This document shows positions 6,661-63,363 of a stretch of DNA of 64,000 nt, piece by piece. Every line of letters starts with the position of its first letter. Positions within the stretch are counted from its first letter, which is position 1. The DNA is from Alphaproteobacteria bacterium (lineage in GTDB: Bacteria; Pseudomonadota; Alphaproteobacteria; Ferrovibrionales; Ferrovibrionaceae): NCBI GenBank assembly GCA_017307375.1, contig JAFKFH010000009.1, positions 310,001 through 374,000 of the forward strand, in the 5' to 3' direction. Made by a program: the position numbers and the translations under genes. The notes under the pieces were generated by a model. That model was not told the DNA's origin. It worked only from the letters and a program-made list of their open reading frames with translations, and did not search any database.

Positions 6661-8409
6661 ATGACTGAGGGTGGCGTGCCCTATCTGCGCGAAGCGGTGG
6701 TGTTCTTCGCGACCGCCGGCATCGTCATCCCCGTGTTCCATCGCCTGCGCATCAACCCGATGCTCGGCTACCTGCTGGCCGGCATCGCGATCGGGCCGTT
6801 CGGTCTGGGCCGGCTGATCCCCGAATTTCCGATTCTGCACGAGATCGTCATTGGCGACATCGAGGGGGTGCGTGACATCGCCGAGCTCGGCGTCGTCTTC
6901 CTGATGTTCATGGTCGGGCTGGAACTGTCGCTGTCGCGGCTGTGGACGCTGCGCCGCTACGTGCTCGGCCTCGGCGGGGCGCAGATCGCGGCGACCGGCG
7001 CCGTCATCGCCGCGATCGCCTGGGCCTTCGGCAACAGCCCGGCCGCGGCGATCGTGCTGGGCGCGTGCCTGGCGCTGTCCTCGACGGCGATGATCGTCCA
7101 GGCCCTGACCGAGCAGCGCCGGCTGACCAGCCCGACCGGCCAGGTCGCGCTGGCGATCCTGCTGATGCAGGATCTGGCGGTGATCCCGATCCTGTTCCTG
7201 CTCGGCGCGCTGGCCGGGCAGGAGGCGGGGCAGGCGTCGCTGGCGCTGGGCATGGCGACCGCCCTGGCCAAGGCCGCCGTCGCCGTGGTCGTCATCGTCA
7301 TCGTCGGACGCCTGGTGCTGAAACCGCTGTTCCGGCTGGTCAGCGCGGCCGGCGCCCCGGAACTGTTCCTCGCCGTGGCCCTGGTCGTGGCGCTGGGCAC
7401 CGCCTCGGCCACCAAGGCGGCCGGGCTGTCGATGACGCTGGGCGCCTTCCTCGCCGGCATGGTGCTGTCGGAAGGCGAGCACCGCCATGCCGTCGAAGTG
7501 GCGATCGAACCGTTCAAGGGCCTGCTGCTCGGGCTGTTCTTCGTCTCGGTCGGCATGGGTATCGATCCCGCCGCGCTGGCCGGGCAGATCGGCATGCTGA
7601 CCGTCGGGGTCGTGGGGCTGCTCGCCATCAAGGCCGGCATCCTCGCCGCACTGTGCCTGGCCTTCCGCCTGCCGCGCTCGGTATCGGTCGAGACCGGCTT
7701 GCTGCTCGGCCAGGGCGGCGAATTCGCCCTGGTGGTGGTCGGGGCGGCGATGGCCCAGGGGCTGATCGCCGAGGGCATCGGCCAGTTCATGATGGTCCTG
7801 GTCGCGGTGACCATGGTGCTGACGCCGCTGGGCGGCATCGCCGCCCGCCGGCTCGGCGCGGCGCTGGCCCGCCGGGAGCACGGACCGGTCGGCACCGCCG
7901 CGGCCCTCGATGGCGGCCAGCTCGATGGCCACGTGGTCATCGCGGGTTTCGGCCGGGTCGGCCAGCTCGTCGCCGGTTTTGCCGCCGACCGCGACCTGCC
8001 CTATCTCGCCCTCGACCTGCGCGGCGAGACCGTCGCCTCGGCCCGCGACCGCGACCTGCCGGTGTTCTTCGGCAATGCCGCGCGCAGCGAACTGCTCGAA
8101 CGGCTCGGCACCGGCCAGGCGCGTGCGCTGATCGTGGCGGTCGACGACGACAAGGCGGCGATGCGGCTGGTCGAAGGGGCGCGGCGCGCCTGGCCCGACC
8201 TGCCGATCTTCGCCCGCGCCCGCGATGCGCGGCATGCCACCGGGCTGACGCGGGCCGGTGCCACGGCCGTGGTGCCGGAAACCGTCGAGGCCAGCCTGCA
8301 GCTCGGCCGGCTGATGCTCGAAGCCTCGGGGATCGGCGACGACGAAATCGACCGGGTGGTCGACGACCAGCGGGCCCGCGCCCTGTCGGCGCTTCACCAC
8401 GGCGAATAA
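6661..8409 (+). CDS. Monovalent cation:proton antiporter-2 (KefB/KefC type) with RCK domain
   Basis: This 582-residue CPA2 transporter has about 13 transmembrane segments over residues 5-390, including GYLLAGIAIGPFGLG and the GQGGEFALVVVG stretch. A cytosolic RCK/TrkA-N domain from about residue 420 has the Rossmann motif VVIAGFGRVGQLVAGF. The family moves K+ or Na+ against H+ and is often gated by nucleotides or glutathione adducts through the RCK domain. No KefF/KefG ancillary oxidoreductase gene is adjacent. The start has AGAGGG upstream. Confidence 0.93.
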   Translation: MTEGGVPYLREAVVFFATAGIVIPVFHRLRINPMLGYLLAGIAIGPFGLGRLIPEFPILHEIVIGDIEGVRDIAELGVVFLMFMVGLELSLSRLWTLRRYVLGLGGAQIAATGAVIAAIAWAFGNSPAAAIVLGACLALSSTAMIVQALTEQRRLTSPTGQVALAILLMQDLAVIPILFLLGALAGQEAGQASLALGMATALAKAAVAVVVIVIVGRLVLKPLFRLVSAAGAPELFLAVALVVALGTASATKAAGLSMTLGAFLAGMVLSEGEHRHAVEVAIEPFKGLLLGLFFVSVGMGIDPAALAGQIGMLTVGVVGLLAIKAGILAALCLAFRLPRSVSVETGLLLGQGGEFALVVVGAAMAQGLIAEGIGQFMMVLVAVTMVLTPLGGIAARRLGAALARREHGPVGTAAALDGGQLDGHVVIAGFGRVGQLVAGFAADRDLPYLALDLRGETVASARDRDLPVFFGNAARSELLERLGTGQARALIVAVDDDKAAMRLVEGARRAWPDLPIFARARDARHATGLTRAGATAVVPETVEASLQLGRLMLEASGIGDDEIDRVVDDQRARALSALHHGE

Positions 8410-53452: not shown

Positions 53453-54430
53453 TCAAGCCAGACAGCCGGCCTCCTTCGCCCGCAACGACACCAGGGCCAG
53501 CACCGTGTCGATGGTCGGCGTCGGCAAACCGGTCAGCCGGCCCAGTTCGGCCACCGCCGCGACCAGGGCCGAAATCTCCATCGGGCGGCCGGCCTCGAGA
53601 TCCTGCAGCATCGAAGTACGATGGGCGCCGACCTTCTCGGTCATGCCGATGCGATCCTCGACCGACACGGTGAAGCGTGCGCCGGTCGCCTCGCCCACCG
53701 CCTTGGCCTCCTCCATCATCCGGGCGATGACGGTGCGGGTCGCCGGATCGCGGGCCAGCGTCTCGAGCGTCGAGCCGGTCAGGGCCGAAATCGGGTTGAA
53801 GCTGAGATTGCCCCACAGCTTCATCCAGATCTCGTCGCGGATGCGCGGCCGTACCGGGCTCTTGATGCCCGCGGCGATCAGCGCCTTGGACAGCGCCTCG
53901 GCCCGCGCCGACTTCGAGCCGTCGGGCTCGCCCAGCGGCATGCGCTCGCCATAGCCGTGCCGCACCACCCCGGGCGCCTCGACCTCGGCCGCCTGCCAGA
54001 CCACCGTGCCGATCGCGCGCTCGGGCCCGATCGTGTCCCAGATCCTGCCGCCGGGATCGACGCTGTCGAGCCGCCGGCCGCCGGCCGGGCCGTCGATCTT
54101 GTAGCCGTACCACCAGGGAATGCCGTTGATCGCGGTGACGACGGCGGTGTCCGGCCCCAGCAGCGGCATCAGCCGGTCGACGATCGGCGGCAGCGAATGG
54201 GCCTTCAGCGTCAGCAGGACATAGTCCTGCGGCCCGAGGGTCGACGGATCGTCCGTCACGGTCGGGCGGACGGTGAAGCTTTCCTCGCCGATATGCAGCG
54301 TCAGGCCGTTTTCGCGCATCGCCGCGCCGTGCGGACCGCGGGCGACCAGGCTGACATCGACCCCGGCACGCGCCAGCAGCGCGCCGACATAGCCGCCGAT
54401 CGCGCCAGCCCCGAAAACGCAGACTTTCAT
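53453..54430 (-). CDS. 2-dehydropantoate 2-reductase family protein
   Basis: This 325-residue protein has the ApbA/PanE pattern: nucleotide motif VCVFGAGAIGGYVGALLARA at residues 3-22, VTAINGIPWWYGYKIDG near 100, and the catalytic lysine region KLWGNLSFNPISALTG near 205. In pantothenate synthesis PanE reduces ketopantoate, but many homologues act on other 2-oxo acids. Its start overlaps the stop of an acyl-CoA ligase gene (ATGA), hinting at a catabolic role. Confidence 0.88.
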   Translation of the reverse strand: MKVCVFGAGAIGGYVGALLARAGVDVSLVARGPHGAAMRENGLTLHIGEESFTVRPTVTDDPSTLGPQDYVLLTLKAHSLPPIVDRLMPLLGPDTAVVTAINGIPWWYGYKIDGPAGGRRLDSVDPGGRIWDTIGPERAIGTVVWQAAEVEAPGVVRHGYGERMPLGEPDGSKSARAEALSKALIAAGIKSPVRPRIRDEIWMKLWGNLSFNPISALTGSTLETLARDPATRTVIARMMEEAKAVGEATGARFTVSVEDRIGMTEKVGAHRTSMLQDLEAGRPMEISALVAAVAELGRLTGLPTPTIDTVLALVSLRAKEAGCLA

Positions 54431-55953
54431 CCGTTCAATCCCAGTTTTTCGGCCAGGCCGATCCGCTGCAGCTTGCCGGTCGCCCCCTTCGGGATCTCGG
54501 CCAGCAGCACCAGCTTGCGCGGCACCTTGAAATCGGCCAGCCGCTCGGCGCAGAAGGCGCGCAGTTCGGCCTCGGTCACCGTCATGCCCTCGCGGGCGAC
54601 CACGGCGGCCGCGACCTCCTCGCCCAGCTTGGCATGGGCCATCCCGAAGGTGACGACCTGTGCCACCGCCGGATGGTCCATCAGCACTTCGTCGACCTCG
54701 CGCGGGCTGATCTTCTCGCCGCCACGGTTGATGATTTCCTTCAACCGGCCGGTCAGGCGCAGATAGCCCTCGCCGTCGAGCATCCCCTGGTCGCCGGTGC
54801 GGAACCAGCCGCCGGCGAACGCCTCGGCATTGGCCTTCGGGTTGTTCTCGTAGCCGGCGGTCACGTTCGGTCCGCGGATCACGATCTCGCCGACCTCGTC
54901 AGGGCCGAGCAGCGTACCGTCCTCGCCCATGATCGCGACCTCGGGACCCGCGGCCAGGCCGACCGAGCCCGGCTTGCGCGCCCTGGGCGGCAGCGGGTTG
55001 GAGGCCATCTGGTGGGCCGCCTCGGTCATGCCGTAGGCCTCGATCACCGGGCAGCCGAACGCGGCCTCCAGCTCGGCCATCACCTGCGGCGGCAGCGACG
55101 CCGACGACGAGCGGATGAAGCGCAGCCCGGCGCGGCCGAGAATTTCCTGGTTGCGCGGCGCGCGGGCCAGGATCGCCTGGTGCATCGTCGGCACCGCCGT
55201 GTACCAGCTGGGCTTCACCTCGTCGAGCTGGGCGAAGAACGACAGGGCATTGAAGCCCGGCGTGCAATGGACCGAGGCACCGGCACCAAGGCTGGATAGC
55301 ACGGCGGCGATCAGGCCGTGGATGTGGAACAGCGGCATGATGTTCAGGCAGCGGTCGGCGGGGCCGAGCGACAGCGTCGCCCCGATATTGACCGCCGAAC
55401 GGCAGACATTGGCGCCCGAGAGCGGCACGATCTTGGGCCGCGACGTCGTGCCCGAGGTGTGCAGCACCAGCGCCTCGTCCTCCGGCACCGCCGGGCCCGG
55501 CCGGGCCGCCGCCGCGGCCGGCATGGCGGTCGTCAGGTCGAAAGTGCCCGCCGGCCCGTCCGCGCGCGGCGTCAGGCGGATCAGCGGCACGCCGAGCTTG
55601 CCCGCCACCTCGACCGCCGGCCCCTGGTCGTCGGCCCCGACGATCAGGGCCTTGGCGCGCAGGTCGGACAGGTAGAATTCGAATTCGTCGGCCCGATAGG
55701 CCGGATTCAGCGGCGCGGTCGAACACCGTGCGGCCACGGTAACGAAAGCCGCCGCCATCTCCGGGCCGTTCGGCAGCACGATGGCGACGCGATCGCCGCG
55801 GCCGAGGCCATGACGATTGAGAAACGCGCCGATTTCCGCGGCGAAGTCGCGCAAGCCGCGGAAGTCGAGCGCCGGGCGCCCGGGGGCGCCGATCGCCGGC
55901 GCCGGGTCGGCACCGTTCTTCAGCAGGTCGTCGAGGCAACGCGGCTCGGTCAT
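54427..55953 (-). CDS. Acyl-CoA ligase, oxalyl-CoA-synthetase-like
   Basis: This 508-residue ANL-superfamily enzyme has the AMP-binding loop LHTSGTTSRPKIVPLSG near residue 165, PLFHIHGLIAAVLSSLGAGA, EAYGMTEAAHQMASNPLPP and GRLKEIINRGGEKISPREVD; the C-terminal lysine is in PKGATGKLQR. These blocks closely follow plant AAE3/yeast Pcs60 oxalyl-CoA synthetases. Oxalate is the best guess, other short acids remain possible. It leads an operon with the PanE-like gene. Confidence 0.87.
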   Translation of the reverse strand: MTEPRCLDDLLKNGADPAPAIGAPGRPALDFRGLRDFAAEIGAFLNRHGLGRGDRVAIVLPNGPEMAAAFVTVAARCSTAPLNPAYRADEFEFYLSDLRAKALIVGADDQGPAVEVAGKLGVPLIRLTPRADGPAGTFDLTTAMPAAAAARPGPAVPEDEALVLHTSGTTSRPKIVPLSGANVCRSAVNIGATLSLGPADRCLNIMPLFHIHGLIAAVLSSLGAGASVHCTPGFNALSFFAQLDEVKPSWYTAVPTMHQAILARAPRNQEILGRAGLRFIRSSSASLPPQVMAELEAAFGCPVIEAYGMTEAAHQMASNPLPPRARKPGSVGLAAGPEVAIMGEDGTLLGPDEVGEIVIRGPNVTAGYENNPKANAEAFAGGWFRTGDQGMLDGEGYLRLTGRLKEIINRGGEKISPREVDEVLMDHPAVAQVVTFGMAHAKLGEEVAAAVVAREGMTVTEAELRAFCAERLADFKVPRKLVLLAEIPKGATGKLQRIGLAEKLGLNG

Positions 55954-56093: not shown

Positions 56094-57479
56094 GTGTCCG
56101 CCATATCGATCGATCGCAACCCCGGCGCGTCGGCAGGGCCGCTCGCGCGCTTCTCCTGGGCCCTGTTCGACTGGGCCAACCAACCCTATTTCACCGTCAT
56201 CACCACCTTCATCTTCGCGCCCTACTTCACCAGCCAGTTCATCGGCGATCCGGTCCGCGGGCAGTCGCTGTGGGGCTATACCCAGTCGATCGCCGGCATC
56301 ACCATCGCGCTCTTGTCGCCGATGCTGGGCGCGGTCGCCGATGCCGGCGGGCCGCGCAAGCCGTTCATCCTGGTGTTCCAGGCCTTCATGGTGATCGGCT
56401 GCGGGCTGCTGTGGTTCGCCCTGCCCGGCCATCTCGCCCTGCTGCCGCTGATCATGGCCGCGCTGGTGCTGGCCGCGATCGGGGCCGAATTCTCGATCGT
56501 CTTCAACAACGCGATGCTGCCGACGCTGGTCCCGCGCGAACGGCTGGGACGGCTTTCCGGCTTCGCCTGGGGCCTCGGCTATCTCGGCGGGCTGTTGCCG
56601 CTCTTCGCCATCCTGATCGTCAGCCGGCCCGAACTGGTCGGCGTCACCCCGCCCGCGGGGCAGGCGCTGTTCGGGCTGGACCGGGCGACCGGCGCGGCCG
56701 AACGGCTGACCGGACCGTTCTCGGCCCTGTGGCTGATCGTCTTCGTGCTGCCGATGTTCCTGTTCACGCCGGATGTGCCGCGGACCGGGCTCGGCCCGGC
56801 GGCGGCGGTGCGCGCCGGGCTGGCGCGGCTGCTCACCACGATCGCGAGCTTCCGGCGCAACGCCAACTGGTTCCGCTTCCTGATCGCCTTCATGATCTAC
56901 AACGACGGCATCCTGGCGCTGATCGCCTTCGGCGGCATCTACGCCGCCGGCCAGTTCGGCTGGGGCACGACCGAGCTTGGCATCTTCGGCATCATCCTGT
57001 CGGCGCTGGGCATCTTCGGCGCCTGGATCGGCGGTGCTCTCGACGACCATTTCGGGTCGCGCTCCACGATCCTGCTGACCACGGCCGGGATGGCTGTCGC
57101 CGCGGCAGGCGTCTTTTCGGTCACCCGGACCTCGGCGCTGTTCGTCATCGACCTGCCCCCGCCGACCGCAGGCGCCGGCCTGTTCGCCTCGACGCAGGAG
57201 CGGATCTTCCTCGGTTTCGCGATCCTGATGGGTCTGTGCCTGGGCCCGATCCAGGCGGCGAGCCGCACGATGGTCGGGCGGCTGGCCCCACCGGGCAAGA
57301 TTGCCGAATTCTACGGGCTGTTTTCGCTGTCGGGCCGGGCGACCGCGTTCCTGGCGCCGTTCGCCATCGCGGTGGTGACGCAGGCCTTCGACAGCCAGCG
57401 GGCAGGCATGAGCGTCGTGCTGGTCTTTCTCGTCGTCGGGCTCTTGCTGATGCTACGCGTCGAGGAGCCGGCCCGCTGA
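56094..57479 (+). CDS. UMF1-type MFS transporter (Atg22-like)
   Basis: This 461-residue membrane protein has about 12 helices and the UMF1 family features FSWALFDWANQPYFTVI near the N-terminus, GRLSGFAWGLGYLGGLLPL, and GAWIGGALDDHFGSR. Eukaryotic Atg22 relatives export amino acids from vacuoles; bacterial substrates are unknown. The GTG at 56094 follows GGGAGGA. The 3' end overlaps the convergent reductase gene by 27 bases. Confidence 0.9.
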   Translation: MSAISIDRNPGASAGPLARFSWALFDWANQPYFTVITTFIFAPYFTSQFIGDPVRGQSLWGYTQSIAGITIALLSPMLGAVADAGGPRKPFILVFQAFMVIGCGLLWFALPGHLALLPLIMAALVLAAIGAEFSIVFNNAMLPTLVPRERLGRLSGFAWGLGYLGGLLPLFAILIVSRPELVGVTPPAGQALFGLDRATGAAERLTGPFSALWLIVFVLPMFLFTPDVPRTGLGPAAAVRAGLARLLTTIASFRRNANWFRFLIAFMIYNDGILALIAFGGIYAAGQFGWGTTELGIFGIILSALGIFGAWIGGALDDHFGSRSTILLTTAGMAVAAAGVFSVTRTSALFVIDLPPPTAGAGLFASTQERIFLGFAILMGLCLGPIQAASRTMVGRLAPPGKIAEFYGLFSLSGRATAFLAPFAIAVVTQAFDSQRAGMSVVLVFLVVGLLLMLRVEEPAR

Positions 57480-58679
57480 GTCGAGCATCGCCCCGATATC
57501 GGTGAACTTGGCCCGCACCCGGCGTTCCGGGGCGGCCGCCAGCTCGGCCGCGTCGATCCGCTTCCACCCGGCATGGTCGACGATCGGGCAGCGCAGCGCG
57601 GCCCGCAGGGCATCGCGGCCCGGCCGTCCCGCCGCGACGACCTCGCCGGCCATGCGCTTGGCCAGCCCCTGCGCCTCGGTGCGGTTGGTCGGAATCGTGC
57701 CGGACGGTCCCCGGCCGGCCCAGCCGACGACGTAGAGACCCGGGCGGACCAGCCCGCCGTCATGCGCCATCACCCCGTCGACAGGCGTGCAGTCGTCGCA
57801 GGCCCGGGCTTCGTAGCCGATGCAGGTGACGGCGAAATCCGCGGGCAAGGTGACGTCGCCGGCGGCACCGGCAAAGCGGACCGCCTCGAGCCGGCCGAGG
57901 CCGAGAAATTCCCGGGGTGCCAGGCCGAAATGGAAGATTATCTCGATCGGCTTGACCGCGGCCGGGGCCGCGAACCCGCGGAAGGTGGTCATGACCGCCG
58001 TGTCGCCGGCAAGATCGGGGGCGCCCGCGATCACCGGCCGGGCCCGGGCCAGCTGCCCCAGCTCGCCCAGTTCGTGCGGGGTGAACTTCGCGTCCTGCGG
58101 ACCGCGGCGACCCACGACATGAATCCGCGTCAGCGGCAGGGCCGCAATCCGGGCGGCAGCCGCGTCGTCGATATCGGAACCGGCAAGCTCGCCGGGCGTC
58201 TTGGCGAGGATCCTGGCGATGTCGATGGCGACATTGCCGTGGCCGATCACCACCGCCGCCCGGCCCGCGCCGAAATCGGGCTCGCCACGGTCGGGATGGC
58301 CGTTGTACCAGGAAACCAGCTTGCCCGACCCCATCACCTGGGCCAGCTCCTCGCCGGGCAGGCCGGTGCGCCGGTCGATCGCGGCGCCGGTGGCGAGCAC
58401 CACGGCGTCATAGTACTGGCCGAGCTGGGCCAGGGTGACGTCGCGGCCGACCTCGACATTGCCGAAGAAGGCCGCCCGGTCATGGGCGAGGATGCGGTCG
58501 AGCAGCCGCGCCACCGCCTTGGTGCCCTGATGGTCCGGCGCCACGCCGTGCCGGACCAGGCCGAAGGGCACCGGCAGGCGGTCGACGACATCGACCCGGG
58601 CGTCGGGCATCAGCCGCAACAGCTGATCGGCGAGATAGCAGCCCGACGGTCCGGATCCGATGACGGCGACCTGGCGCAT
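57453..58679 (-). CDS. Adrenodoxin-reductase-type ferredoxin/flavodoxin--NADP reductase
   Basis: This 408-residue FprA-like enzyme transfers electrons from NADPH to small redox carriers. The FAD motif is VIGSGPSGCYLADQLLR, then PFGLVRHGVAPDH. NADPH is bound at VVIGHGNVAIDIARIL near residue 150, and GWAGRGPSGTIPTNR is the family's C-terminal flavin loop. It follows boxB by 11 bases in the same operon. No boxA gene is present here, so this reductase is a plausible electron supplier to BoxB, perhaps through the flavodoxin at 61900. Confidence 0.9.
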   Translation of the reverse strand: MRQVAVIGSGPSGCYLADQLLRLMPDARVDVVDRLPVPFGLVRHGVAPDHQGTKAVARLLDRILAHDRAAFFGNVEVGRDVTLAQLGQYYDAVVLATGAAIDRRTGLPGEELAQVMGSGKLVSWYNGHPDRGEPDFGAGRAAVVIGHGNVAIDIARILAKTPGELAGSDIDDAAAARIAALPLTRIHVVGRRGPQDAKFTPHELGELGQLARARPVIAGAPDLAGDTAVMTTFRGFAAPAAVKPIEIIFHFGLAPREFLGLGRLEAVRFAGAAGDVTLPADFAVTCIGYEARACDDCTPVDGVMAHDGGLVRPGLYVVGWAGRGPSGTIPTNRTEAQGLAKRMAGEVVAAGRPGRDALRAALRCPIVDHAGWKRIDAAELAAAPERRVRAKFTDIGAMLDSAGRLLDA

Positions 58680-58690
58680 CCGTCCGGTCC

Positions 58691-60115
58691 TCAGTTGCCG
58701 CGGACGTATTCGTAGTCGACCGGCTGGGCGTTGATCCCACGGTCGGGCGGCGCGATCCAGCCGGCCATCTTGCCGGGCTCGTACACACCCTTCATCAGGC
58801 TGGCGATGAAGCCGCGATCCTGGTCGGTCGGCAGCCATTCGCCCTGGCGCGCCACGAACTCGGCGGCCGAGATCGGCTTGCCCGTCGTGTCGGTCGGGAC
58901 GTTGGCCCAGGAACCGATGGTGCGGCGGAACCGGGGGCTCGGCAGCACCAGGCGATGGTCGTAGCCCGCCTTCTGCAGCAGGCGGTTCCAGCGCACCACG
59001 CCGATTTCGCAATCCTTGACGTAGGAGGCGCGGCTGACCTCGTTCATCGCGTTGCGCAGCGGGATCTGGTCGAGGCGCACGCCGCCCTGGCCATCGGGCA
59101 CTTCCAGGTCGTAGGTCTGGTCGCGGGCGATGTGATCCTCGTAGCTCGTCTCGTCCGGCCGACCCTTCAGGCCGTTGGCGAAGTAGGAAGCCGCGTTCGA
59201 CGACTGGTCGGCGCCGAACAGGTCGAGCGCCGAGGAGAACCAGAAGTTGATGTATTTCTGCAGGGTCGGCAGGTCGACCGCGCCGGCGCGGCGCACCGCC
59301 TCGGGGTCGTCCGAGCCGATTTCCTTCATCACCTCGATCGTGCGGCGGACGACGCGGGCGATGCCGGTATCGCCCACGAACATGTGGTGGGCTTCCTCGG
59401 TCAGCATGAACTGGCAGGTGCGGGCCAGCGGATCGAAGCTCGATTCGGCCAGCGACTTCAGCTGGTACTTGCCGTCGCGGTCGGTGAAATAGGTGAACAT
59501 GAAGAACGACAGCCAGTCCGAGATCGGCTCGTTGAACGTGCCGAGGATGCGGGGCTTGTCGCTGTCGCCCGAATGGCGCTGCAGCAGTTCCTCGGCCTCC
59601 TCGCGGCCGTCGCGGCCGAAATAGGCGTGCAGCAGATAGACCATCGCCCAGAGATGGCGGCCTTCCTCGACATTGACCTGGAACAGGTTGCGCAGGTCGT
59701 AGAGCGAGGGGGCGGTGTGGCCGAGCAGGCGCTGCTGCTCGACCGAGGCGGGCTCGGTATCGCCCTGGGTGACGATCAGGCGGCGCAGGGTCGAGCGATG
59801 CTCGCCCGGGACCTGCTGCCAGACATCCTTGCCGAACTCGTCGCCGAAGCCGACCTTGCGGTCGGGGTTGCGGTCGGCCAGGAAGATGCCCCAGCGGTAT
59901 TCCGGCATCCGGACATGGCCGTAGGTCGCCCAGCCCTTGGCGTCGACCGAGGTCGCGGTCCGCAGATAGACGTCGCGGGCCTGGAAGTCGGTCGGCCCCA
60001 TGTCCTGCCACCAGTTCAGGAACTCGGGCTGCCAATGCTCGAGCGCGCGCTGCAGCGTGCGGTTCGAGCCGAGATCGACGTTATTGGGAATACGCTCCTG
60101 ATAGTTGATCGCCAT
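58691..60115 (-). CDS. boxB: Benzoyl-CoA 2,3-epoxidase subunit B
   Basis: BoxB is the dinuclear-iron oxygenase that epoxidises benzoyl-CoA in the aerobic CoA pathway. The 474-residue product has full family length. The iron ligands show in NVEEGRHLWAM near residue 150 and LTEEAHHMFVGDTG near 240, with SDWLSFFMFTYFTDRDGKYQ between. The ATG at 60115 lies 2 bases after the boxC stop, with GAGGG upstream. Electrons normally come from BoxA; here the next gene is an FprA-type reductase. Confidence 0.96.
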   Translation of the reverse strand: MAINYQERIPNNVDLGSNRTLQRALEHWQPEFLNWWQDMGPTDFQARDVYLRTATSVDAKGWATYGHVRMPEYRWGIFLADRNPDRKVGFGDEFGKDVWQQVPGEHRSTLRRLIVTQGDTEPASVEQQRLLGHTAPSLYDLRNLFQVNVEEGRHLWAMVYLLHAYFGRDGREEAEELLQRHSGDSDKPRILGTFNEPISDWLSFFMFTYFTDRDGKYQLKSLAESSFDPLARTCQFMLTEEAHHMFVGDTGIARVVRRTIEVMKEIGSDDPEAVRRAGAVDLPTLQKYINFWFSSALDLFGADQSSNAASYFANGLKGRPDETSYEDHIARDQTYDLEVPDGQGGVRLDQIPLRNAMNEVSRASYVKDCEIGVVRWNRLLQKAGYDHRLVLPSPRFRRTIGSWANVPTDTTGKPISAAEFVARQGEWLPTDQDRGFIASLMKGVYEPGKMAGWIAPPDRGINAQPVDYEYVRGN

Positions 60116-60117
60116 GA

Positions 60118-61761
60118 TCACACCCTCTCCCAATTGAATTGCGGTTTCGACCCCGACCCGAACAGCTTGAGCGCGCCGCGCTCGCCGGTCGAGTTCGGAC
60201 GATAGAACACCCAGTTCTGCCAGGCCGACAGGCGGCCGAACACCTTGGTTTCGACGGTCTCGGCGCCGGGGAAGCGCAGCGAGGCTTCGAGGCCGGTCAG
60301 CGCGTCGGGCGACAGGCTCGCCCGTTCCTCGAGCGCCAGGCGGATTTCGTCTTCCCAGTCGATGTCGTCGGGCGCCACGGTGACGAGGCCTTCCCGGACC
60401 GCATCCTCGGCGGTGAAGAAGGCGCCGTTGCGGCTGCGCAGGATGTCGACCTTGTCGGGCGTGCCGATGAAGCGGGTGGCCAGGCGGCTGGTGCCGTTGA
60501 CCATCGGCAGCAGGCCGAAGTTGAAGGCATCCAGTGCGATCTCCGGCGCGTTCTCCTCGCCGTCGGGCAGGGCCAGCATGTAGCTGCGGTCGGCGGCCAG
60601 CGCCAGCTCGAACAGCAGACCGGCAAAGCACGAGCCCTGGTCGATCACCGCGTAGAGGCTGCGCGAGGAGACGTCGAGGCGCGCGAAGGTGCGGCGCAGG
60701 AAGCCGATGGTCTCGCGCACCAGCCAGTCTTCCTTGAGCGCTTCCATGACGGCGCCGGCCTTCAGCACGGCCTGGACACTGCCCTCGGTCTTGATGACCA
60801 GGAGACCGAGATCGTTCTCGTTGGTGCGCAGCATCAGGATGGCGTCGTCGAGTTCGCGGGCCATGGCCAGCGGCCACCAGCCGTCGCCGGCGGCATGGAT
60901 GGCTTCCGCCGTCTCCGGCCCGCCCTCGGCCGGACCGCGGACCGTCAGGGTCGCGGCGCGGCCGGCGCGATCGAAGGCGACATCGACATGGGTGTAGTGA
61001 TAGCCCGCCTCGTCGATCGTCCGGTTCAGCGGGTTCAGCGCGATGCCCTTGGCATCGGCCGGGCGGATCGAGGCTTCGGCCAGCGCCGAGGCACGGCCGG
61101 CGACCAGCGCCGGGAAATTGGCCGGTGCGGCCGAACCGTCGATCAGGCCCCATTCCTTGGCGCGGTCCGCGCGCACGCCGTCCTGGCTGGTGCAGAACAG
61201 GTCGGCGAGATCGCGGCGGACCTTGCGCTTGTCGACGACGCGGGTCAGGCCACCGGTGCCGGGCAGCACGCCGAGCAGCGGGACTTCCGGCAGGCTGACG
61301 ACGGTCGAGCGATCGTCGACCAGCAGGATCTCGTCGCAGGCCAGCGCGACCTCGTAGCCGCCGCCGGCGGTGGTGCCGTTCAGGGCCGCGACGAACTTCA
61401 ACCCGTCATGGCGGCTGGAATCCTCCATGCCGTTGCGGGTCTCGTTGGTGAACTTGCAGAAGTTCACCTTCCAGGCATGGGACGAGGTTCCCAGCATGTA
61501 GATGTTGGCGCCGGCGCAGAACATCCGGTCCTTGCCCGATGTCAGCACGACCGTCGCGACCTGCGGATGCTCGAAGCGGATGCGCTGGATCGCATCGTGC
61601 AGCTCGATATCGACGCCGAGGTCGTAGGAATTGAGCTTCAGCTTGTAGCCCGGCTTCAGCCCGGCATCCTCGTCGACATCGAGGGTGAGCGTCGCGATGC
61701 GGCCGTCGACCTGCAGCCGCCAATGGCGATAGCGGGCGGGCGCGGTGTCGAACGTGATCAT
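60118..61761 (-). CDS. boxC: 2,3-epoxybenzoyl-CoA dihydrolase
   Basis: BoxC is a large crotonase-fold enzyme that opens the epoxide ring using two water molecules, giving 3,4-dehydroadipyl-CoA semialdehyde and formate. The 547-residue product carries crotonase blocks such as MFCAGANIYMLGTSSHAWKV and ALNGTTAGGGYEVALACDEI near residue 150, and GVLPGTGGLTRVVDKRKVRR. The ATG at 61761 has GGAGG 10 bases upstream. It is the first gene of the boxC-boxB-reductase operon. Confidence 0.96.
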   Translation of the reverse strand: MITFDTAPARYRHWRLQVDGRIATLTLDVDEDAGLKPGYKLKLNSYDLGVDIELHDAIQRIRFEHPQVATVVLTSGKDRMFCAGANIYMLGTSSHAWKVNFCKFTNETRNGMEDSSRHDGLKFVAALNGTTAGGGYEVALACDEILLVDDRSTVVSLPEVPLLGVLPGTGGLTRVVDKRKVRRDLADLFCTSQDGVRADRAKEWGLIDGSAAPANFPALVAGRASALAEASIRPADAKGIALNPLNRTIDEAGYHYTHVDVAFDRAGRAATLTVRGPAEGGPETAEAIHAAGDGWWPLAMARELDDAILMLRTNENDLGLLVIKTEGSVQAVLKAGAVMEALKEDWLVRETIGFLRRTFARLDVSSRSLYAVIDQGSCFAGLLFELALAADRSYMLALPDGEENAPEIALDAFNFGLLPMVNGTSRLATRFIGTPDKVDILRSRNGAFFTAEDAVREGLVTVAPDDIDWEDEIRLALEERASLSPDALTGLEASLRFPGAETVETKVFGRLSAWQNWVFYRPNSTGERGALKLFGSGSKPQFNWERV

Positions 61762-61792: not shown

Positions 61793-61806
61793 TGCATGAT
61801 AATGCA
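61793..61806. promoter_or_regulatory. BoxR/BzdR-like operator, boxC side (TGCA-N6-TGCA)
   Basis: TGCATGATAATGCA is an exact TGCA-N6-TGCA. BoxR and its relative BzdR are reported to bind TGCA repeats of this form in box/bzd promoters of Azoarcus. It overlaps a possible minus-strand -10 box and ends 31 bases before the boxC ATG. No BoxR gene is in the window. Confidence 0.7.
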
Positions 61807-61823
61807 CTAAGTTGGGGGCGCAA
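61796..61823 (-). promoter_or_regulatory. Possible promoter of the boxCB operon
   Basis: On the minus strand TTGCGC (61818-61823), a 16-base spacer and TATCAT (61796-61801) make a moderate sigma-70 match. The -10 lies inside the TGCA-N6-TGCA operator, so bound regulator would block polymerase. Confidence 0.45.
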
Positions 61824-61835
61824 GCATTATTTTGC

Positions 61836-61863
61836 TTGATGCCAAACCGAATTTGCGTACCAT
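61836..61863 (+). promoter_or_regulatory. Possible promoter of the flavodoxin gene
   Basis: TTGATG (61836-61841), a 16-base spacer and TACCAT (61858-61863) form a moderate sigma-70 match immediately before the second TGCA-N6-TGCA operator. The arrangement mirrors the boxC side. Confidence 0.45.
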
Positions 61864-61876
61864 GCATTTTAGTGCA
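61863..61876. promoter_or_regulatory. BoxR/BzdR-like operator, flavodoxin side (TGCA-N6-TGCA)
   Basis: TGCATTTTAGTGCA is a second exact TGCA-N6-TGCA, centred 70 bases from the first and ending 23 bases before the flavodoxin ATG. Its position implies that the flavodoxin is regulated together with boxC and boxB. Confidence 0.7.
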
Positions 61877-61899: not shown

Positions 61900-62376
61900 A
61901 TGAGCGCCAAGGTGACGATTCTGGTGGGTACGATGACCGGCACCGCCGAGATGGTGGCGCAGGAAGTCGAAACGAGCCTGGGCAACGAAGGCTATTCCGT
62001 GGCGATCGAGCCGATGGACAACCTCGTCCCCGACATCTTCGAGCGCGAAGGCGCTTTCCTGATCTGCACCTCGACCTACGGCAACGGCGACGTCCCGGAC
62101 AATGCGCGGGCCTTCTTCGAGGCGATCGAGGCGGCGCGGCCGGACCTCGCCGCCGTCGCCTACGGCATCATCGCCCTGGGCGACCGCACCTATGGCGCCA
62201 CCTATTGCGAAGGCGGCAAGCGCTTCGACGCGCTGCTGTCGGGCCTCGGCGCCCGCCGTCTGGGCGAACCCATGCTGCACGACGCCGGATCGGGCACCCT
62301 GCCGGAGGAGGTCGCGGCCGATTGGGCGCTGGCCTGGGCCGGCGAGCATCTGGCCGAACGGCGCGCCGCCGCCTGA
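61900..62376 (+). CDS. Flavodoxin (MioC-like), probable redox partner of the box system
   Basis: This 158-residue single-domain flavodoxin binds FMN phosphate at LVGTMTGTAEMVAQEV (residues 7-22). The isoalloxazine loops are TSTYGNGDVPDNA near residue 51 and ALGDRTYGATYCEGGKRFD near 90. It is divergent from boxC, and each gene has its own TGCA-N6-TGCA site in the 138-base gap. That, plus an FprA-type reductase in the boxCB operon, suggests an NADPH-reductase-flavodoxin-BoxB chain. This role is inference. Confidence 0.92.
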   Translation: MSAKVTILVGTMTGTAEMVAQEVETSLGNEGYSVAIEPMDNLVPDIFEREGAFLICTSTYGNGDVPDNARAFFEAIEAARPDLAAVAYGIIALGDRTYGATYCEGGKRFDALLSGLGARRLGEPMLHDAGSGTLPEEVAADWALAWAGEHLAERRAAA

Positions 62377-62451: not shown

Positions 62452-63363
62452 ATGAATATCACGCTGCGCCAGCTCCAGGCGTTCATCGCGGTGGCCATCG
62501 ACGGCAACTTCACCCGTGCCGCCCAGCGCCTGCATATCGCCCAATCGGCGGTTTCGGTGCTGGTGCGCGAGTTGGAGGCCGAGTTGCGCGTGCGGCTGTT
62601 CGACCGCACCACCCGGCGGGTCGAACTGACCGAGGCCGGACGCGAATTCCGCGGCAGCGCCGAGAAGCTGATCGCCGACCTCGAATATGCCGTGCGCAAC
62701 ACCCATGACCTGGTCGAACGCAAGCGCGGCCGCTTCACCGTCGCGGCCCCGCCGCTGCTGGCCGCCGCCTTGCTGCCGCCGGTGGTCGCGAGCTTTGCAC
62801 GCGACTATCCCGGCGTGCGGGTGACGCTGCTCGACGCCGGTACCGACCAGATCGTCGCCCGCGTCAAGTCGGGTGAGGCCGATATCGGCGTCGGCACCTT
62901 CGCCGCCGACGACGAGGGGCTGGCGCGCGTCCGGCTGGCGCGGGACACGCTGATGCTGTTCTGCCAGTCGTCGCACGCTCTGGCGGCGGTGACCCAGCCC
63001 GGCTGGTCGGCCCTGCGCGACGCGCCCTTGATCACCCTGACGCCCGACAGTGGTATCCGGGCCCTGGTCGACCAGGGCTATCAGGCCGCCGGGATCGAGA
63101 TGAACATCGCCTTCGAGGTCTCGCAGATCTCGACCGCCCTGGCGCTGGTCGAGGTCGGGCTGGGCGTCAGCGTGCTGCCGGCCTATGCGATGGCCTGGTC
63201 GCCGTCGGCCGGGATCGCCGCCCGCCCACTGGCCGAACCGCAGATCTCGCGCGAAGTGGCGGTGATCATGCGGTCGTTCCGCTCGCTGCCGCCATCGGCC
63301 AACGAATTCATCCAGCGCCTGCAGCAGAATGCGCGGATATTTGCGCCCGACACGGCGAACTGA
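62452..63363 (+). CDS. LysR family transcriptional regulator
   Basis: This 303-residue LysR protein has a winged helix-turn-helix at residues 1-60 (FTRAAQRLHIAQSAVSVLVR; LFDRTTRRVELTEAG) and a periplasmic-binding-like effector domain. The downstream lyase gene on the same strand is a likely target. A role in box regulation cannot be excluded but the box operators are not of LysR type. Confidence 0.95.
   Translation: MNITLRQLQAFIAVAIDGNFTRAAQRLHIAQSAVSVLVRELEAELRVRLFDRTTRRVELTEAGREFRGSAEKLIADLEYAVRNTHDLVERKRGRFTVAAPPLLAAALLPPVVASFARDYPGVRVTLLDAGTDQIVARVKSGEADIGVGTFAADDEGLARVRLARDTLMLFCQSSHALAAVTQPGWSALRDAPLITLTPDSGIRALVDQGYQAAGIEMNIAFEVSQISTALALVEVGLGVSVLPAYAMAWSPSAGIAARPLAEPQISREVAVIMRSFRSLPPSANEFIQRLQQNARIFAPDTAN

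Follow-up and report, generated by a model that had tools for sequence, protein, structure and literature searches.

Predicted BoxR operators between boxC and a divergent flavodoxin gene in an alphaproteobacterial genome

Gene content of the boxC–flavodoxin region

The window, meaning the whole 64-kb stretch of DNA that was analysed (C13:310001-374000), belongs to a genome of 7.54 Mb in 41 contigs; coordinates given without a contig are those of the window. Three genes of aerobic benzoyl-CoA degradation or its proposed electron supply lie together on the minus strand: boxC, coding for 2,3-epoxybenzoyl-CoA dihydrolase (60118..61761; TIGR03222, 891 bits, cut-off 712), boxB, coding for the diiron subunit of benzoyl-CoA 2,3-epoxidase (58691..60115; TIGR03225, 765 bits, cut-off 499), and, in boxA's position, a gene for an FprA/adrenodoxin-reductase-like NADPH reductase (57453..58679). 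BoxB matched PDB 3per with an E-value of 1.3e-203, and this is the only boxB match in the genome. The best solved structures for the reductase were adrenodoxin reductase (1cjc) and FprA (1lqt); it is similar to FprA over nearly its whole length and differs from both in that its proposed partner is a flavodoxin. A homolog follows boxB in L051, L061, L179, L197 and some other loci, though not in most. None of the 16 BoxA candidates scored in the genome exceeded the cut-off of TIGR03224 (best 56 bits versus 459). The locus resembles the BoxAB benzoyl-CoA 2,3-epoxidase system in possessing BoxB (TIGR03225; 3per family) and BoxC, and departs from it in lacking BoxA, with the FprA-like reductase in its place and a flavodoxin that is apparently co-regulated. 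The acyl-CoA ligase encoded at 54427-55953 was considered as a benzoate-CoA ligase and rejected (TIGR02262, 203 bits versus a cut-off of 375).

Divergent from boxC on the plus strand is a gene for a box-type flavodoxin (61900..62376; PF00258, 95 bits). The product falls below the MioC/PRK08105 equivalog cut-offs (121 versus 160 bits for NF005989, 108 versus 158 for NF006531), and the solved structures nearest to its profile are flavodoxin 2m6r, MioC and cindoxin. The TMTGTA, STYG and GDxTY motifs, which hold FMN in flavodoxins, are kept in a 27-member alignment (A1). Directly downstream, on the same strand, lies a gene for a LysR regulator (62452-63363).

Putative operators in the intergenic gap

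The gap between the boxC start (61761, minus strand) and the flavodoxin start (61900, plus strand) measures 138 bp. It contains the two exact TGCA-N6-TGCA sites described in the first-pass annotation, both of which are present, and no other copy exists in the 64-kb window. Predicted operator 1 (61793..61806; TGCATGATAATGCA) is proximal to boxC and predicted operator 2 (61863..61876; TGCATTTTAGTGCA) to the flavodoxin gene. Their placement had been called symmetrical, which holds roughly, the distances to the respective starts being 31 and 23 bp. A plausible promoter had also been claimed beside each site; this was not supported, as a strict sigma-70 scan returned none. By eye, TTGCGC-N16-TATCAT, which overlaps operator 1 and faces boxC, is only a suggestion for a promoter.

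Using a matrix built from 81 operators of other genomes, whose own scores have quartiles of 25.0, 27.1 and 29.7 bits, operators 1 and 2 scored 26.3 and 25.2 bits. Each has two mismatches to ATGCANTATANTGCAT. Both fit approximately the extended palindrome ATGCACTATAGTGCAT, with some outer and spacer letters deviating from the published consensus; this is the BoxR consensus given in the accessible text of a study on Betaproteobacteria (PMC6449761), where multiple sites are usual at box/bzd promoters. The equation of the repeat with that of BoxR/BzdR regulators is borne out by the available part of PMC6678401, which gives the BzdR operators as TGCA(N6)TGCA. The BoxR-type regulator and the TGCA-N6-TGCA motif are known kinds.

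Operators 1 and 2 lie 70 bp apart with a weaker site between them, a candidate imperfect middle operator (61822..61837; AAGCATTATTTTGCTT) whose centre is 30 bp from operator 1 and 40 bp from operator 2. It has three mismatches to ATGCANTATANTGCAT and scored 12.5 bits, slightly under the minimum of the exact training sites (12.8 bits). A hand count over 44 flavodoxin–boxR gaps showed AAGCA/TGCTT half-sites in the top-scoring site of 23. There are thus two sites between the boxC operon and the flavodoxin gene, probably with a third. Read on the boxC strand, operator 1 is TGCATTATCATGCA, one letter off the TGCATTATGATGCA that lies upstream of boxC in L197 and L179, the two loci nearest to the window set. 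Operator 2 resembles, by eye, the CATGTATTATAGTGC that precedes the flavodoxin gene of the same two loci, a region with no exact or one-mismatch core.

A BoxR gene on another contig

The first-pass annotation had reported no BoxR-like gene in the window, had placed the regulator elsewhere in the genome, and had held that the absence of a BoxR homolog would speak against its reading. A search for the shikimate-kinase domain indeed found no BoxR-like gene in the 64-kb window, the three matches in the genome lying on C16, C9 and C16. That at C9:194980 belongs to a 298 amino acid BoxR protein (NCBIfam NF006015, 409 bits, cut-off 204) which possesses an N-terminal XRE helix-turn-helix (PF01381, HTH_3) and a C-terminal shikimate-kinase-like SKI domain (PF01202). 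The genome thus has the BoxR homolog whose absence would have spoken against the first-pass reading. On the 478-kb contig C9, some 194 kb separate boxR from the closer contig end, so the gene is far from the window.

This boxR sits with box and ligase genes, and its own promoter region carries an operator-like site, ATGCAATATAGTGCAT, with the TGCA-N6-TGCA core about 25 bp before the predicted start; it is the sole site in the genome with zero mismatches to ATGCANTATANTGCAT. Divergent from boxR is a second flavodoxin gene, followed by genes for a benzoate-CoA ligase (TIGR02262, 748 bits), a thioesterase and a hydrolase. Directly after boxR there is a boxC remnant (L008:9499-9969 on C9, plus strand), a 156 amino acid frame which joins approximately the first 39 and the last 117 BoxC residues; a large internal part of boxC has been lost in frame. 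The resident C9 locus has no boxB. Compared with the BoxR/BzdR regulon of Azoarcus and other Betaproteobacteria, as presented in the accessible literature, the present system shares the regulator architecture (XRE-type helix-turn-helix plus shikimate-kinase-like domain) and the TGCA-N6-TGCA palindromes, and differs in having its regulator on another contig, a flavodoxin gene as the divergent partner and no boxA over cut-off.

Conservation of the motif and its association with BoxR

Two collections of box loci were used. The likeness set holds the best 80 of 593 boxB loci by resemblance to the window BoxB and is biased to the window type. The class-wide sample comprises 385 genomes, from which 80 stretches represent 79 of the 81 boxB genomes, the window's own genome and G313 being left out. 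The sets overlap, G342/L064 and G274/L063 being apparently the same records; 160 of 162 BoxB rows differ.

In the 145 loci in which the boxC start is in view together with 120 bp or more of upstream sequence, TGCA-N6-TGCA occurs within 300 bp before boxC in 52 (the window included), and the next commonest of the 16 palindromic words in 13. A spacing of six accounts for these 52 loci, whereas any other spacing from 0 to 20 was found in at most nine. Before boxR the motif is present in 20 of 88 cases, the next word in four. Before the flavodoxin genes it was found in 8 of 51 cases and is surpassed by CGCG (21) and GCGC (11), which means that the exact word is not outstanding there. Counting C9, there are 44 stretches in which flavodoxin and boxR genes are divergent neighbors; 36 of these gaps hold a site of at least 10 bits by a matrix trained on boxC operators, compared with 0.35 expected from shuffles. 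The proposed tie of the flavodoxin to BoxR sites appears sound on this comparison.

For the boxC site, 73 stretches of the class sample were usable (L210 was excluded). Where the genome has BoxR, 27 of 47 stretches carry an exact site; where it does not, 0 of 26 do (Fisher 1.4e-7). With a relaxed definition, allowing no more than one mismatch over the eight core letters and requiring at least four A/T in the spacer, the figures were 40 of 47 and 1 of 26. Giving one vote per family, where a family may count once with BoxR and once without, the exact site was found in 16 of 25 versus 0 of 11 (p=5.5e-4). Twenty of the 47 BoxR stretches have no exact boxC site, and seven of these have no relaxed one either. 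The likeness set gave no clear difference (20 of 56 with boxR in view versus 4 of 15 without); many of its contigs are cut, and boxR may therefore be elsewhere. These comparisons show that the motif upstream of boxC is conserved and dependent on the presence of BoxR across the class sample, in agreement with the initial view of the sites as BoxR operators, and the two exact sites of the window are very probably of this nature.

Flavodoxin and BoxA in box loci

A recurrent gene order, ligase - flavodoxin <- -> boxR - boxC - boxB, sometimes followed by the FprA-like reductase, was observed without boxA; in canonical loci boxB is followed by boxA, and a flavodoxin gene is absent. In the likeness set 30 loci have the flavodoxin only, 26 boxA only, one both and 23 neither; for the class stretches the corresponding numbers are 19, 14, 0 and 47.

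At the level of whole genomes, where the first few candidates per genome were scored and many genomes are incomplete, boxB was found in 81 of 385, and a strong box flavodoxin (at least 185 bits, a cut placed where no score fell between 187 and 165 bits) in 39, of which 33 also have boxB (hypergeometric 1.3e-19). Twelve further genomes have weaker flavodoxin matches only, eight of them with boxB. Among the 52 genomes with boxB and BoxR, 30 have the flavodoxin only, 11 BoxA only, two both and nine neither (Fisher 1.4e-4); over all 81 boxB genomes (three both, 30 flavodoxin, 11 BoxA, 37 neither) the avoidance is not significant (p=0.14). The 14 genomes counted as BoxA-bearing include G231, whose match is below cut-off and whose gene is truncated at the end of a contig. 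Among the genomes with boxB and BoxR, family f42 has three with BoxA and a single one, G342, with the flavodoxin, and family f81 has one with BoxA and two with the flavodoxin. In the BoxB tree, the window row falls in a set of 69 (45 with flavodoxin, 21 with neither, two with BoxA, one with both; support 99); the other half holds 39 of the 41 BoxA rows, along with five flavodoxin rows. From this distribution the window flavodoxin looks like a stand-in for the missing donor BoxA.

It might instead be that the sites are BoxR operators and the flavodoxin is a bystander, or serves another enzyme, with BoxB reduced by a housekeeping reductase. We regard this as unlikely, and it is the alternative that fares best. 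The 37 of 81 boxB genomes with neither partner are in its favor, as are the six of 39 flavodoxin genomes which show no boxB. Of the 29 boxB genomes without BoxR, 28 lack BoxA and a strong box flavodoxin alike, which means that another donor can serve BoxB; seven flanking proteins in L144 and L189 show no obvious donor, and among ten in L144, L189 and L104 there was no clear candidate. Against it, the flavodoxin co-occurs with boxB and boxR, adjoins boxR or the ligase gene in many families, and replaces BoxA within the two families named above.

Several loci are unusual in their partners. L144, L147, L151 and L189 are examples from boxB genomes without BoxR, BoxA or a strong flavodoxin. L055, L069 and L142 contain two boxB genes with boxA between them, one of those in L142 being partial at a contig end, and the two BoxB proteins of L055, as of L069, fall in different halves of the tree. 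In L211 and L212 (G197, G290) a box flavodoxin gene lies beside a hydrolase gene, away from the canonical boxCBA cluster; no operator was found at this flavodoxin gene, and both genomes hold both partners.

BoxR in trans and the origin of the split locus

Among class stretches with a boxC start and BoxR in the genome, eight have no boxR in view. Three of these (G107, G343, G379) carry an exact site and five do not; four of the five have a relaxed site, and in the same four boxR lies just past the stretch. In G379, which keeps the boxC site, boxC and boxR share a contig at a distance of 1.1 Mb; in G107 and G343 boxR is on a contig other than that of boxC. G093, from the same family as the window genome, has boxR and the flavodoxin gene on C47 with a site between them, and boxCB on C70 with a site before boxC.

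The origin of the window cassette was judged from sequence identities and a FastTree tree. The best-scoring relatives of the C9 boxC stub are the boxC genes of L133, L132 and L134, from the same family (79, 75 and 74% over 117 residues), compared with 58% for the window boxC; over shorter stretches the stub is equally near to boxC of other families, e.g. L149 (79%, 101 residues). The window BoxB is 85% identical to that of family f61 (L179, L197), in which flavodoxin, boxR, boxC with one exact site, boxB and reductase genes lie in a row. The HTH core of the resident BoxR, SGVSERYLAQLE-x-G-x-GNISILLLR, is common to BoxR of L197 and L179. The window boxCB is apparently of another lineage's type, a replaced cassette under the resident BoxR in trans. 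The simplest story, we infer, is that the resident locus lost boxC and boxB and that an f61-type cassette without boxR took over, its two promoters, brought face to face, staying readable by the resident BoxR through the matching HTH core; duplication followed by differential loss is an alternative explanation of the split locus. A long inverted-repeat-like stretch of the CATCCCCGC...GCGGGGATGA type was also seen between boxR and boxC in L197 (7330-7530) and L179 (7370-7550).

A cassette of another lineage's type, with boxR outside the window, would also fit a resident BoxR that no longer controls it, expression being constitutive or under another regulator and the sites being relics. This seems improbable to us, as both window sites score in the normal operator range, the HTH core matches that of the L197 and L179 proteins, and the boxC site is found without a nearby boxR in G379, G093, G107 and G343 as well.

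Proposed regulation and electron transfer

BoxR and BzdR are repressors lifted by benzoyl-CoA, according to the accessible text of PMC6449761 and PMC6678401. For control by the resident BoxR we propose that, without benzoate, BoxR made from C9 would bind the array between boxC and the flavodoxin gene and keep both divergent promoters closed. The ligase encoded beside boxR would produce benzoyl-CoA, which would release BoxR and so induce boxC-boxB-reductase and the flavodoxin gene together. Electrons would then pass from NADPH through the FprA-like reductase and the flavodoxin to the diiron epoxidase BoxB, the flavodoxin doing the job done elsewhere by BoxA, the usual BoxB reductase; the flavodoxin would belong to the regulon because it is the electron carrier to BoxB. 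Judged from sequence comparison, this explanation as a whole has a probability of roughly 0.8.

The cindoxin system is a useful model for the flavodoxin route. In the available text of PMC9687028, cindoxin feeds a P450 from NADPH via a FAD reductase, and the order suggested here (NADPH, FAD reductase, flavodoxin-like FMN carrier, oxygenase) would parallel cindoxin reductase/cindoxin/P450cin (PDB 4oxx), with a diiron epoxidase as the terminal enzyme in place of a P450.

The LysR regulator encoded at 62452-63363, directly downstream of the flavodoxin gene and on the same strand, could in principle bind the sites, BoxR being unrelated to them. We rejected this as very unlikely: a homolog of more than 60 bits occurs in just two of 160 other box loci, none with at least 45% identity, and the sites are conserved and tied to BoxR.

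No publication linking a flavodoxin with BoxR, the box pathway, BoxA/BoxB or a benzoyl-CoA oxygenase was found in the searchable literature, judged by titles and accessible text and with most subscription papers outside its scope, and the word flavodoxin is absent from the main text of the 2019 regulon paper (PMC6449761). As far as this literature extends, a BoxR-controlled flavodoxin substituting for BoxA is new. We lean, with some reserve, towards a second, widespread version of the aerobic benzoyl-CoA pathway in which such a flavodoxin replaces BoxA, with or without a dedicated FprA-like reductase, and which moves between lineages as a module under the resident BoxR. A genome survey, in its accessible text, counts the absence of BoxA as an obstacle to the pathway (PMC10803450); in our class sample 67 of the 81 boxB genomes have no BoxA match at an E-value of 1e-60 or better, so that such a rule could misjudge many genomes. 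If the flavodoxin is the donor, annotation would underestimate how many bacteria can degrade benzoate via the epoxide route, and BoxB would have an exchangeable redox partner. The window and C9 would together exemplify control of a split locus by a regulator acting in trans.

The motif elsewhere in the genome

That the pair arose from chance TGCA words in an A+T-richer gap is hardly credible and was rejected: shuffling the 64-kb window gave at least two exact sites in 14 of 100 cases, so the bare count is unremarkable, but dinucleotide shuffles of the 138-bp gap itself did so in 23 of 50,000, and the sites are conserved in related loci. The whole genome contains 37 exact sites, compared with 25 for the pattern read backwards, so most of those elsewhere are background, and it is the comparative evidence that gives the window's two sites their meaning.

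Eleven of the 37 sites were inspected, including the window's two and that of boxR; the remaining 26, mostly with G+C-rich spacers, lie outside this set, and on that basis a BoxR regulon of two loci is put forward as a proposal. The neighbors of eight other places were scanned with Pfam for additional BoxR targets, and all were rejected. No relation to box genes is apparent in the surroundings of the C35 site (a BREX brxC-like gene), C9:128012 (FlaF and NeuB genes, the site lying within the NeuB frame), the C3 site (M20 peptidase with an adjoining AraC-type regulator), the C8 site (a GGDEF/EAL protein and a PAS/histidine kinase), the C38 site (an NMT1-type binding protein) and the C18 site (a LysR regulator and a LamB/YcsF gene); the same holds for the C30 site (an unassigned 399 amino acid frame and an aminotransferase) and C16:149029/149039 (an unassigned 143 amino acid frame). 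C16:111165, C37:17413 and C9:184211 were placed on gene calls only. The near-site before the brxC-like gene on C35 scored 25.5 bits, comparable to the window sites, and score alone is thus no proof of BoxR control. It forms part of a pair, a strong operator-like site with a weak one at a distance of 36 bp (L224:8297-8312 and 8333-8348), which is possibly the site of another regulator.
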